Below are positions 14,990 through 23,750 of a stretch of 30,512 bases of DNA, in pieces. Where the stretch lies: the NCBI GenBank assembly GCA_001986395.2, contig MQVO02000109.1:1-30512 (forward strand). The letters are read 5' to 3'. Source of the DNA: Irpex lacteus (taxonomy: Eukaryota > Basidiomycota > Agaricomycetes > Polyporales > Irpicaceae). Both the position numbers and the translations under genes were made by a program. The notes under the pieces were generated by a model. It did no database searches and was not told where the DNA came from. It saw only the letters and a list, made by a program, of their open reading frames with translations. Each line of letters begins with the position of its first letter. Position 1 is the first letter of the stretch.

Positions 14990-15234
14990 CTACGAAATAT
15001 TCCCGGAATATATGGACATTATGTTTATCCAAGGAAAGCAATAGCCATCATAAGAACAAGGATGATTACACCAATAGACCATGGTAGAATCCGTGGAGCC
15101 TTGTATGATCCGTAGTATAGACCTCGAGCGATGTGTAGGTATACAAAGATGAAGAAGAATGAAGCTACATTAGCGTGGATGTATCGAATCAACCATCCGT
15201 AGTTTACGTCTCGCATAATCGCAGGTGTTATAAT
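14990..15234 (-). pseudogene. cob: Cytochrome b exon (foreign type)
   Basis: The minus-strand frame gives IMRDVNYGWLIRYIHANVAS, FFFIFVYLHIARGLYYGSYK and a run ending ILVLMMAIAFLG. This is the region around helix B and the first heme-ligand histidines of the complex III cytochrome b. Codons are CTT, CTA and CGA with TGG for Trp, unlike the native genes. Homology ends abruptly after AIAFLG, where a group I intron commonly interrupts cob, and runs into T/A-rich DNA. Upstream it joins an intron endonuclease tail. The N-terminal cob exon is displaced to 17648 on the opposite strand, so this copy cannot be a normal gene. Confidence 0.88.
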
Positions 15235-15240
15235 AACTCG

Positions 15241-15828
15241 TTAGTTTTGCAGTGTAGAATAGAAGCTGTATCGGCCTAGGTAAGCCTTCCCTGTGTCAAT
15301 GTTACGAGAAACAGCACGAGAAGTACGAGATAGGCCAATAGCCTCTTGAGCGTCTCCATAGTTGGTATATGGAGTAGTGTTAACTAGTACACCATTATCA
15401 TAAATATAAATAGAACGTGATGTAACAGTTCGAGCAATAGCCTTTGCGTATTCGAGTTGATTCATTTCAGGAGTACGTTCCACAGGCACTTCATAATTCA
15501 GTACCTCTGAAATAGTGTCTGATTCTGGTGCAATTCCAGTAACATTACTGTTGGTATAACGTCCTGAGTTGATATACTTACTAATTAGTACAAGGAGCTT
15601 ACGACCTTGAATTAGATAAGCATAACCCCACTTGTACATATACAGAGCTAGACACCATAGAGAGAAATCAACACCCTTTCGAGTTTGGAATGGCATAGAA
15701 AGGAAAAAAGGCATTAGATAGTCGTATAGCGCATCAATATTAATAATTGAAATAGTGATAACGCTAGTGTTTCGGTTTAGTGTACTACTAATTACTGGAG
15801 CTGCTCTATCAATAGTGAATGTACACAT
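15241..15828 (-). CDS. LAGLIDADG homing endonuclease, C-terminal half with NUMOD1 tail (foreign type)
   Basis: The 195-codon frame starts in the second LAGLIDADG domain (ALYDYLMPFFLSMPFQTRKG, DFSLWCLALYMYKWGYAYL, then QGRKLLVLISKYINSGRYT). It ends with a NUMOD1-like DNA-binding repeat (IYIYDNGVLVNTT, EAIGLSRTSRAVSRNIDTGK, YLGRYSFYS). The LAGLIDADG catalytic helices are absent, so the protein is N-terminally truncated and probably inactive. Codon use matches the cob and nad4L fragments on either side (CTA, CGA), so it came with the same foreign DNA, presumably from a cob group I intron. Only about 25 bases separate its stop from the cob exon, too few for a full intron core. Confidence 0.8.
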   Translation of the reverse strand: MCTFTIDRAAPVISSTLNRNTSVITISIINIDALYDYLMPFFLSMPFQTRKGVDFSLWCLALYMYKWGYAYLIQGRKLLVLISKYINSGRYTNSNVTGIAPESDTISEVLNYEVPVERTPEMNQLEYAKAIARTVTSRSIYIYDNGVLVNTTPYTNYGDAQEAIGLSRTSRAVSRNIDTGKAYLGRYSFYSTLQN

Positions 15829-15877
15829 TTGTGGTAGGCATTGCAGGAATGTTCACTAAATGGAATAGGTGTAATTT

Positions 15878-15961
15878 CAACTCGACAGCTAGAAGCATAA
15901 GTTCAATGCTAATAAGAAGCATAAGTAGATTCTTACGGTTAAGGATAATAAGATATAACCA
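15878..15961 (-). pseudogene. nad4L: NADH dehydrogenase subunit 4L fragment (foreign type)
   Basis: The minus-strand frame encodes YLIILNRKNLLMLLISIELMLLAVE, the conserved helix 2 of nad4L. The codons (CTT, CTA, CGT) are very different from those of the complete native gene at 6390. Both ends are cut: upstream meets AT-rich DNA, and downstream fades into the endonuclease frame at 15828. It is a relic of a second nad4L. Confidence 0.85.
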
Positions 15962-16139
15962 AAATTTAAAATATCCCTCCAATATTAATTTTATTTAGTT
16001 AAATTAAAAAGGAGGGGGAGGACTAGGTTTACTTTTATTGTAAAAATTTTTCTTTTTATAATTCTCTATAATATTATACATATAAACTTAATCCAATAGA
16101 GAAGGAATAATCTCTAAATAAATTTAAAGATTCTCCCTC

Positions 16140-16184
16140 CCCTATTCTTTTATTTATATTTTTTATTTTTTGTTTTTAAATTTA
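16140..16184 (+). repeat. 45-bp direct repeat, copy 1
   Basis: A run beginning CCCTATTCTTTTATTTATAT and ending TTTTTAAATTTA is identical to 16681-16725. The two copies bracket the atp8-trnI-trnF cassette. Confidence 0.9.
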
Positions 16185-16252
16185 TGTTTAAGAAAATAAA
16201 ATTTATACTCTCTTATATAATTAAATACTTTTTTTATTTAGATATATAAAAA

Positions 16253-16300
16253 TAATTAAATAATAAGTAACTAAAATAATAATTAAATAATTAAATATTT
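16253..16300. repeat. 48-bp inverted repeat, copy 1
   Basis: Exact reverse complement of 16728-16775. The core is AATAAGTAACTAAAATAATA. It lies inside the direct repeats and outside atp8, trnI and trnF. Confidence 0.9.
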
Positions 16301-16367
16301 ATAAAATTTTAAAGTTCTATAAATCTATTCCTTATATTAAGGGATAAATAACTTTTAATTAAATTAA

Positions 16368-21768: not shown

Positions 21769-21898
21769 ACCCCTTTACTATGTGTATAATTTATGTGTCT
21801 AATACTATGTGTAAAATAATAGAGCATGTATACTATCTAATCAATACTAATTTACGTTAAAAGATCTATGTTATAAGATATACGTAAAAATATATAAC

Positions 21899-21972
21899 CA
21901 GGTGGTAGACTAGTTGTCTAAGTTACCCGTTTTGGGTATGGGAGATCGTTGGTTCGAGTCCAACCTACCTGA
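21899..21972 (+). tRNA. trnP: tRNA-Pro (TGG)
   Basis: The acceptor CAGGTGG/CTACCTG pairs fully with one G-T, and the anticodon stem CCCGT/ATGGG encloses TTTGGGT (anticodon TGG). The T arm is GTTGG TTCGAGT CCAAC. It lies between foreign nad1 and cox3 and is more GC-rich than the native tRNAs, so it probably belongs to the same island. Confidence 0.93.
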
Positions 21973-22172
21973 CATCCATTAAACTCCCTTTTTTTATTAA
22001 AATAAAAAAAGGTATCTAAACACTCTATCCTGTCAAAAAAAAAGTTTAATGGGTCGATGCTTATTTTAATAACAACTAAAACTAAAATACTGCATTAACA
22101 GACACACATGTAACAACATATAGTAAAGGGCTTCTAATTCTTTACTCTAAGGAGATTAAACACAAACCGAAC

Positions 22173-22839
22173 ATGGCACTATTGCTTAACGGTCTTAACC
22201 AATCAAAGACGATTCTAGGTCTACGTCCAGCCTATCAATCACACCCTCACCATTTAACACTTAAAAGCCCTTGGCCTATTTTAACATCAGGGTCAATTCT
22301 AGTGATGCTATCAAGCGCAGCTATGTACTTTAACTCATTTGATGGGGCTGGTCTACTACTTGTTATTGGGCTACTAAGCACATCAACTGCTATGGCTCTA
22401 TGGTGGGCTGACTGTATCATGGAAGGTACATACCTTGGTCACCATACTAAGATTGTACAACACAGCCTATCACTTGGTGTTAGCCTATTCGTTGTTACAG
22501 AAGCTTGCTTCTTCCTATCAAGCTTTTGGGCTTATTTCCATTCAAGTCTAGCACATACAGTTGAACTAGGGTCACAATGGCCGCCAGCAGGTGTAACAGC
22601 ACTATCACCAATGGCAGTACCTCTAATGAATACACTACTACTAATTAGCTCAGGTGCTACTGTAACATATGGTCACCATGCTATGTTCCGGTCAGACCGT
22701 TCAGCTGCTCTAATTGGTTTATTCCTAACAGTTGTACTAGCTATTATCTTTACAGCTCTACAAGGACTTGAATATGACGTAGCTGGATTCTCTATGGCAG
22801 ACGGTGCTTATGGTAGCTGTTTATTCTTTGCAACAGGGT
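22173..22839 (+). CDS. cox3: Cytochrome c oxidase subunit 3, exon 1 (foreign type)
   Basis: The 222-codon exon begins MALLLNGLNQSKTILGLRPA, an unusually long lead before the conserved YQSHPHHL. It continues SPWPILTSGS, WWADCIMEGTYLGHHT, VTEACFFLSSFWAYFHSSLA, LGSQWPP and LQGLEYD. These are the seven-helix subunit III core of complex IV with its conserved HH and the WPP motif. There are no stops; Leu is mainly CTA and Trp is TGG. The exon ends ATGG in a split Phe codon. It may be functional because exons 2 and 3 are also open. Confidence 0.93.
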
Positions 22840-23008
22840 AAACCTTTATGCTCTTTAACTAAATCTATTTTGTTAAGATCTTAACTGATAAAACAAAGCT
22901 TTATTTTTATTTAAATAAATAGAGGCACAACGACTATACATTACATTTAGATAATATAGTCTTAATTGTATTAAAAAATATTGATAATATAAGGCTAGTA
23001 ATAGTTTG
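22840..23008 (+). other. Short group I intron in cox3
   Basis: 169 bases lie between GGGT and TCCATGG. Joining them gives ATGFHGFHVLVGTIAL, the normal cox3 sequence. The core contains GCACAACGACTATA and AGATAATATAGTC, whose P7 arms GACTATA/TATAGTC are perfectly complementary. The exon ends in T and the intron in G. No ORF. Confidence 0.85.
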
Positions 23009-23130
23009 TCCATGGTTTCCATGTACTAGTTGGTACAATTGCACTAGCTGTAGGTCTAGTACGTCTCTACTACTACCACTTTACATCTACTCACCACATT
23101 GGGCTAAAAGCTTTTATCCTTTACTGGCAC
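23009..23130 (+). CDS. cox3: Cytochrome c oxidase subunit 3, exon 2 (foreign type)
   Basis: It encodes HGFHVLVGTIALAVGLVRLY, then HFTSTHHIGLKAFILYWH, with the helix VI-VII residues of subunit III. The frame is open. After WH the sequence departs from cox3 (YLAYTNQFY...), indicating another insertion. Confidence 0.88.
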
Positions 23131-23271
23131 TACTTAGCCTACACTAATCAATTCTATGCAAAGATACTATTTGCAACGGCTATCTATATTTATACCGTCT
23201 AACTACTGCTAAGCATTAAGGCACAGTCTTGATCATATTAAAACATATGTAATCAACTTATTCAATCATTC
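23131..23271 (+). other. Probable second intron in cox3
   Basis: About 141 bases separate LYWH from FVDVVWLSL, which are contiguous in other cox3 proteins. Boundaries are approximate. I do not see a clear group I core. Confidence 0.55.
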
Positions 23272-23331
23272 GTTTGTGGACGTAGTATGGCTATCCCTTT
23301 ACCTATCTATCTATTGGTGGAGAGCTGCTTA
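23272..23331 (+). CDS. cox3: Cytochrome c oxidase subunit 3, exon 3 (foreign type)
   Basis: It reads FVDVVWLSLYLSIYWWRAA with stop TAA, the standard C-terminus (VDVVWLFL-ISIYWWG in relatives). It completes an uninterrupted gene of about 280 codons. Confidence 0.85.
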
Positions 23332-23678
23332 ATACTATACTTATACTTTCACTAGACCCCGTAGACTAATCTATACTAAATTATACTCTCTAAGACTAGT
23401 TATAGTATATATAACCTTTTGTATTCTAAATCTATACTTTATAAGACTAGTAATAGTATATACAACCTTTTGTACCCTTAACCAAGGATTGATAGTGTGT
23501 TAGTATTCTAGTGTGCTAGTAAGACGTCAATAGGTTCACTAACTCTTTAATAAGCTTCACAATGAAGCGGTTGTAATATAATATATAATGTGCTTGTCTT
23601 TCTACCTATAGTTTATTAGTAAGATAGTATTAATTTTAAACGACATCTAATAAGGTTAAAAATAAGGTTAAGAATAAA
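23332..23678. other. Spacer with a 33-bp direct repeat
   Basis: No gene is visible. TAAGACTAGT-A-ATAGTATATA-AACCTTTTGTA occurs at 23391-23423 and 23442-23474 with two mismatches. Confidence 0.7.
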
Positions 23679-23750
23679 GCGGTTGTAGCATATGGGTAAT
23701 GCACCGCCTTGTCAAGGGGGAAGATGTGGGATCGTAGCCCATCAATCGCG
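23679..23750 (+). tRNA. trnD: tRNA-Asp (GTC), second, foreign-type copy
   Basis: The acceptor is GCGGTTG/CAATCGC. The anticodon arm is CCGCC TTGTCAA GGGGG (anticodon GTC) with one mismatch. The T arm is GTGGG ATCGTAG CCCAT, whose loop lacks the usual TTC. It differs strongly in sequence from the Asp tRNA at 4227 and follows foreign cox3. Confidence 0.8.

Follow-up and report, generated by a model that had tools for sequence, protein, structure and literature searches.

Probable horizontal acquisition of a nad1-tRNA-Pro-cox3-tRNA-Asp segment by the mitochondrial genome of the wood-rot fungus Irpex lacteus

Plants offer well-documented cases of mitochondrial genes passing from one species to another; the cases documented for fungi are, to our knowledge, mainly of introns, plasmids and gene ends. 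The study of the plant Amborella trichopoda reportedly proposed the uptake of whole mitochondria. The mitochondrial DNA (mtDNA) of this plant is described as holding foreign mitochondrial genomes (PMC4664403). In Allomyces and Glomus, foreign C-terminal gene parts were carried into the mtDNA by mobile open reading frames (ORFs), as stated in PMC3630166, which refers to Paquin et al. 1994 for these gene parts, and orchid mitochondria are reported to have acquired fungal mtDNA (PMC11827590). Here we describe the 30,512-nt contig MQVO02000109.1 of the Irpex lacteus assembly GCA_001986395.2 (hereafter the window; contig C259 in this analysis), a piece of the mitochondrial genome of this Polyporales wood-rot fungus. 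Its nad1-tRNA-Pro-cox3-tRNA-Asp segment, like its foreign-looking cob, nad4L and nad5 fragments, differs in codon style from the host's own genes. Segment and fragments were very likely acquired horizontally, with a distant fungal mitochondrion as their source, and are decaying alongside native genes that are still intact.

As in Amborella, foreign mitochondrial genes stand beside the host's own in the mitogenome; unlike in that plant, with its very large foreign tracts, the host here is a fungus and the tracts are shorter and rearranged. With Allomyces and Glomus, the window shares the movement of mitochondrial protein-gene sequence between fungal species. In those cases, however, the 3' ends of genes were fused to native genes beside an endonuclease ORF, whereas Irpex carries a collinear, tRNA-bearing segment of several genes that is unfused. 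The window's foreign pieces are separate from its native genes, without any in-frame fusion of a foreign 3' end to one of them, and signs of a linked homing endonuclease ORF were confined to a weak match beside the cob piece. The mitogenome of Phlebia radiata, at 156 kb, is described as containing a duplicated segment of its own, spreading introns and a single reverse-transcriptase ORF of presumed foreign origin (PMC4019555). It is likewise a large mitogenome of a white-rot basidiomycete, for which repeats, both dispersed and inverted, and traces of recombination are reported; unlike for Irpex, a foreign core-gene set is not mentioned in the accessible part of that paper. The orchid case resembles Irpex as a mitochondrion-to-mitochondrion transfer involving fungi, with the direction being fungus to plant versus, likely, fungus to fungus. 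With the terms used, the open-access literature yielded neither an Irpex mitogenome paper nor any account of an agaricomycete mitogenome with a set of foreign core genes, and the word stem 'mitochondri' was not found in the main text of the Irpex lacteus genome papers checked. Foreign mitochondrial genes at this scale appear to be little described in fungi.

Two codon styles coexist in the window. We compared five native stretches comprising 1695 codons, namely nad4L (6390-6659), nad5 (6700-8607 counted, in a frame that extends to 8745), nad2 (26605-28230), all three on the plus strand, rps3 of the VAR1 family (11993-13006, minus strand; Pfam VAR1, 93 bits) and the start of atp6, with 13 pieces of cox3, nad1, cob, nad4L and nad5 located between 15028 and 23329 (781 codons), referred to below as CTA-style. 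The ratio of TTR to CTN codons for leucine was 216/33 in the native stretches versus 10/115 in the CTA-style pieces (Fisher p = 6e-53), and that of AGR to CGN codons for arginine was 35/1 versus 2/17 (p = 4e-11); these pieces had been picked non-randomly, by gene homology and from the list of an earlier note on this DNA (the original prediction), and both p values describe a contrast already flagged there. GC content at third codon positions was 0.12 in the native stretches and 0.28 in the CTA-style pieces, and ATA encoded isoleucine 98 times versus three times.

The leucine and arginine contrasts bear out the proposal of two coding styles in one contig. The accompanying idea that the foreign genes would be marked by using only TGG for tryptophan fell away, as the TGA/TGG counts (1/9 native, 0/18 CTA-style) do not differ significantly (p = 0.36), and we rejected tryptophan usage as a sign of foreignness. 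The atp8 gene that was said to use TGA for tryptophan was not found, and the right-end gene looks by eye like the beginning of atp6. ORF 24334-25287, to which no function was assigned, contains three other TGA codons. That nad5 is present in both styles proved correct; nad4L is too, though its CTA-style piece (15836-15961, minus strand) spans only 42 amino acids and scores 23.3 bits against Pfam Oxidored_q2, below the cut-off of 26.1. The two predicted tRNA-Asp (GTC) genes were likewise recovered, at 4227-4299 on the minus strand and at 23679-23750 on the plus strand, and differ, with 39 of 73 aligned positions alike.

The best-preserved foreign part is the nad1-tRNA-Pro-cox3-tRNA-Asp segment (20561-23750, plus strand), which is collinear and interrupted by four inserts of 142-196 nt. 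Its nad1 lacks the 5' end of the gene and consists of exon 1 (20561-21112), exon 2 (21309-21485; Pfam NADHdh at 21309-21491, profile positions 225-276) and exon 3 with the stop codon (21667-21765, within the alignment to native nad1), separated by intron-like inserts of 196 nt (21113-21308) and 181 nt (21486-21666). Exon 1 matches NADHdh with 118 and 95 bits on either side of an in-frame TAA (20858-20860), and this stop was present in all 19 contigs holding the stretch among the 20 that we fetched (the stretch was not found in the 20th, C245). Together, the exons share 60% identity with native nad1 across 274 aligned residues. Following tRNA-Pro (TGG; 21899-21973; ARAGORN, Rfam 52 bits), the CTA-style cox3 comprises exon 1 (22173-22838; 222 amino acids without a stop; Pfam COX3, 235 bits), an intron-like insert of 172 nt at site 1 (22839-23010), exon 2 (23011-23130; COX3 profile positions 200-243 at 23008-23139), an insert of 142 nt at site 2 (23131-23272) and exon 3 with the stop codon (23273-23329, recognised by eye in translation). 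The second tRNA-Asp, identified by ARAGORN, ends the segment.

By eye, the reading frame is kept across all four inserts, the boundaries of both nad1 inserts and of the first cox3 insert also having been placed by eye; in three of the four, T is the last base of the 5' exon and G that of the insert. In group I introns, a U closes the 5' exon and a G closes the intron. The Rfam group I model RF00028 matched one of the four inserts, the first in nad1, with 18.5 bits (E 0.097), below its gathering score of 50; the second nad1 insert had no Rfam match, and a scan of the whole window against Rfam at E 0.1 returned tRNAs only. All four inserts are likely to be introns.

Further CTA-style pieces are scattered to the left of this segment. 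Two belong to cob and lie on opposite strands: an internal piece of 71 amino acids (15028-15240, minus; Pfam Cytochrome_B, 85.5 bits) and a probable 5' piece of 25 amino acids (17648-17722, plus), recognised by eye and lacking a Pfam match. Joined to the internal piece is an ORF (15241-15852, minus) that is probably the remnant of an intron endonuclease (LAGLIDADG_1, a weak 17.4 bits, below the cut-off of 23.1). A nad5 fragment (19281-19637, plus) contains frame shifts and five stops; it is 41% identical to nad5-B, a second CTN-style nad5 introduced below, and its pieces are 48% identical to native nad5 over 83 residues. The original prediction had described the foreign DNA as shattered, which fits these cob, nad4L and nad5 fragments and not nad1 and cox3, which are collinear, flank a tRNA and are interrupted where introns might lie. 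The same collinearity bears on a piecemeal origin, in which each piece would have arrived separately on a mobile element, either an intron or an endonuclease ORF, along with some copied donor exon next to it, as for atp6 in Allomyces and Glomus. Since nad1, tRNA-Pro, cox3 and tRNA-Asp extend in order over 3.2 kb, more than co-conversion by a single intron would be expected to carry, and since no endonuclease-like frame between them was seen in the ORF list, we consider such hitch-hiking unlikely, even with the weak LAGLIDADG match adjoining the cob piece and a yeast-like cox1 exon in another contig (C150) that by eye runs in frame into an intron-ORF-like tail, both of which speak for it.

The origin of the CTA-style cox3 was addressed by searching 5.8 billion proteins, from which the best 120 of 399 matches were listed; for the native cox3, the best 120 of 7982 were listed. 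Among these, the best match to the CTA-style protein was P0001 with 99% identity, followed by metagenome proteins (P0002-P0010) with 68-78%, and the nearest match bearing an organism name was Kwoniella with 62%. Its identity to the native cox3 of the same genome was 52%, and all listed organism-named matches of that native protein were Agaricomycetes (75-78%). Trees were built from rows selected as the closest relatives, the named proteins and a spread of the remainder, namely a quick tree of 74 rows (72 of the 240 listed proteins plus the two queries) and a careful one of 44 rows (42 of the 240 plus the queries), from which P0079 was excluded, a protein labelled as bacterial (Prescottella soli) that clusters with Kwoniella and is probably a contaminant. 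In the 44-row tree, the CTA-style cox3 fell inside a 21-row clade that a 100/100 branch separates from Kwoniella, Rhodotorula and the Agaricomycetes, and the 74-row tree agreed; the native cox3 was placed inside the Agaricomycetes. Forcing the CTA-style protein into the Agaricomycetes cost 107.6 log units in the 44-row tree (approximately unbiased (AU) test, p = 4e-43), so that for cox3, the gene on which this comparison was run, the outcome was the opposite of the grouping with the host's kin that the original prediction had named as refuting it.

The insert sites recur in the same clade. At site 2, its members P0004, P0009, P0012 and P0019 terminate exactly where the CTA-style frame is interrupted; at site 1, P0001 ends and P0013 (in the clade of the 74-row tree) leaves the frame, and P0020, P0038 and P0041, which are absent from the trees, also end there. 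A pattern for site 2 scored 20 of the 120 listed CTA-style matches as leaving the frame, 76 as running on and 24 as lacking the motif, although two of the 20 (P0016 and P0037) look continuous on inspection; among the 120 listed native matches, none left the frame, 112 ran on and eight lacked the motif. Judged from these alignments, the foreign clade is likely characterised by the cox3 insert sites. A look for relatives in viral contigs gave 16 pattern matches, none of which was confirmed. The tree and the insert sites also weigh on the idea that the CTA-style genes are old duplicates of host genes whose codon usage has since drifted. Gene duplication does occur in fungal mitogenomes, an example being the 6.1-kb duplicated segment with atp6 described for Phlebia radiata (PMC4019555). 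Yet the AU result largely refutes such an origin for cox3, the insert sites are common to the other clade, and the leucine, arginine and isoleucine styles are coherent with one another, which leaves drifted duplicates very improbable.

In the structure comparisons, the search output carried PDB entry codes only, and the organism names were supplied by us. The CTA-style nad1 matched one entry with 296 bits over residues 4-203, the next reaching 258; the former is a complex I structure that we take to be from the fungus Chaetomium. Presumably, the best entry for the host-type cox3 P0122 is from fission yeast and that for Kwoniella cox3 from a plant. A fungal donor is favoured by the nad1 structure matches, not by those of cox3.

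Searches of the genome covered 317 contigs with 44,346,346 bases; the Irpex lacteus F17 assembly is described as 317 contigs with 44,362,654 bp from a PacBio 20-kb library (PMC5596461), of which 81 are given as at least 50 kb long (PMC12134385). One RPB2 exon of the nuclear genome shares 98% identity with that of Trametopsis cervina, a member of the same family, and the strain in hand is probably I. lacteus F17. The mitochondrial contigs besides the window whose lengths are known (n = 33) measure about 10 to 40 kb each and were therefore treated as repeated views of a single organelle genome. Intact native genes are present elsewhere in these contigs: cox3 in eight, nad1 in four, cob in four and cox1 in five. 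Counted in one copy each, their TTR/CTN ratios for leucine are 36/2, 46/10, 43/12 and 71/4, respectively, and none contains CGN or TGA codons. Intact atp6 frames occur in four contigs, and an intact cox2 frame of 253 amino acids was also found. The original prediction had proposed looking for TTA-style copies of cox3, nad1 and cob outside the window, and all three are there, intact; its suggestion that foreign genes might now replace native ones therefore failed. Replacement was rejected for cox3, nad1, cob and cox1, and nothing was replaced because these four genes persist intact.

In the assembled contigs, the foreign segment is physically joined to the host mtDNA. Positions 20560-23900 matched 23 contigs including the window, 15 of which carry all 3,341 bases at 99-100% identity. 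In the 20 contigs fetched from the 22 others matching the block (C79 and C127 were left out), the left edge was crossed in 19, the right edge in 15 and the entire block in 14, ten contigs continued past the start of native nad2, and in all 20 the block adjoined a flank of the window on at least one side. The edges of the block are accompanied by an AT-rich direct repeat, of which one copy (18305-18351) matches another at the right edge of the block (23900-23946) exactly over 47 bases, and a third copy, a 23-bp core, lies just left of nad1 (20511-20533; all plus strand). This core has three matches in the window versus 0.04 expected, and the three copies split the region in two, the nad5 fragment lying in one part and nad1 and cox3 in the other. 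Moreover, at a 55-bp stretch (15986-16040) alignments break and contigs switch neighbours: 40 of 112 candidates were scored, and of these 40 matches ten run through (the window included), 16 stop at 16040, ten cover only 16000-16100 and four end earlier. An alternative 1.1-kb segment occurs at this stretch in C292 and C196 and is also entered by C103 and C234. This switching of partners indicates that the genome recombines at short repeats, and we infer that the same process also fixed the foreign DNA.

An assembly chimera, contamination by another organism or mitochondrial DNA copied into the nucleus might be suspected from the many redundant contigs of read-like length, some of which have different neighbours at the same repeat. 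We regard these sources as highly improbable, however, with the edges crossed in 19 and 15 of the 20 contigs, a window flank adjoining the block in every one of them, and an intact native nad2 after the block. RPB2-type genes occur at three places only in the assembly, the number that one nuclear genome with polymerases I, II and III would have, and no separate donor genome was seen among the 20 fetched contigs. The original proposal of DNA from another mitochondrial lineage is thus supported by the cox3 phylogeny, the common insert sites, codon usage and edges that recur across contigs.

Several features suggest that the foreign copies are degenerating. At 98 columns invariant in 11 cox3 relatives, P0001 differs at five and the window copy at six; together with the stop in nad1, its missing 5' end and the broken nad5, these changes point to lost constraint. 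Exon 1 of the CTA-style cox3 itself remains an open frame. The route, the number of events and the donor are matters that we infer rather than observe. Cell contact, by hyphal fusion or parasitism, probably introduced mitochondria, or mtDNA, from outside, after which the organelles would have fused; repair or recombination at short repeats (the AT-rich copies at 18305, 20511 and 23900, and the 55-bp stretch at 15986) could then have joined donor segments to the host mtDNA. Because the native copies presumably do the work, there would be no selection to keep the foreign ones, which would decay.

Several points weigh against a distant fungal mitochondrion as the source. Tree placement concerns cox3, with nad1, cob and nad5 assigned by identity, style and position, and the donor clade of cox3 consists of metagenome proteins without an organism name. 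The CTA-style cox3 and P0002 score somewhat higher against entries that we take to be plant or animal than against those presumably from yeast; therefore, cox3 does not prove a fungal donor. The structure matches of nad5 do not discriminate, the order for nad5-B being nearly that for native nad5, and over 64 residues the internal CTA-style cob piece and native cob show 86% identity, though this stretch is conserved. For the group I identity of the four inserts there is a single sub-threshold match, and some of the database proteins that stop at the insert sites may do so at contig ends rather than introns. Finally, assembly contigs served as stand-ins for long molecules, and the integration counts are counts of contigs, not raw reads.

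Other divergent genes occur in the mitochondrial contigs. nad5-B (L033:8652-9584, minus strand; in C83 and other contigs) has 272 codons without a stop, with leucine encoded by 42 CTN and no TTR codons, and shares 57% identity with native nad5 and 52% with the window's CTA-style piece over 85 residues. A whole-genome search with it, in which 141 of 146 candidates were scored, recovered the native gene and the window piece, the latter in about 20 contigs, as well as 23 full-length copies that match exactly. It also returned two other nad5 fragments, both divergent, with 59-73% (16 contigs) and 41% (15 contigs) identity to nad5-B. Examples of such fragments are C312:6509-6712 and C312:24987-25256, with which the nad5 versions total five. 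The yeast-like cox1 exon lies in a repeat-rich stretch of C150 (L039:9291-9755, minus strand) and was found in more than 20 contigs; 15 of its 17 leucine codons are TTA, and tryptophan is encoded three times by TGA and never by TGG. Its structure scores are 213 and 184 bits against entries that we take to be yeast COX1 and a plant, respectively, compared with 205 and 225 bits for the same stretch of native cox1. By eye, the frame of the exon extends into the intron-ORF-like tail mentioned above. In C150, a sequence of about 4.8 kb recurs at a spacing of about 11 kb; this contig also contains a 498-aa ORF rich in charged residues (L039:6103-7596, minus strand) without a Pfam family above cut-off. 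At L036:8481-8903, a broken atp6 piece lies beside a cox3 tail that by eye is like the C-terminus of Kwoniella cox3, a pair found in 13 contigs.

By their sequences, nad5-B, the cox1 exon of C150, the divergent nad5 fragments and the L036 cox3 tail point to several donors, and the mitogenome as a whole has probably taken up DNA from more than one. It is an evenly balanced possibility that it represents a fungal counterpart of Amborella, a mosaic from several distant fungi (the CTN-style lineage of the window, the source of nad5-B and, for the cox1 exon with TGA as tryptophan, an ascomycete yeast), with up to four non-native versions of nad5 beside the native one and recombination at short repeats.

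Beyond these genes, the window contains dispersed hairpin elements (CCCCAAAAAACTAG ... CTAGTTTTTTGGGG), at 25272-25322, 14295-14343, 16843-16890 and other places. One of them lies between ORFs 24334-25287 and 25311-25691, which may once have been a single ORF. Positions 9420-11978 (minus strand) hold a GC-richer run of adjoining ORFs that is possibly the remnant of a mitochondrial plasmid. Pfam found no family above cut-off for the ORFs at 9683-11754 (within this run), 24334-25688 and 2097-2390.

If the host is correctly named, a published assembly already contains the evidence in its mitochondrial contigs. If our reading is true, mushroom-forming fungi also take up foreign mitochondrial DNA at the scale of gene sets. 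The entry of such DNA by hyphal fusion or mycoparasitism, its fixation by short repeats, and the misleading of fungal mitochondrial phylogenies and barcodes would then become testable.

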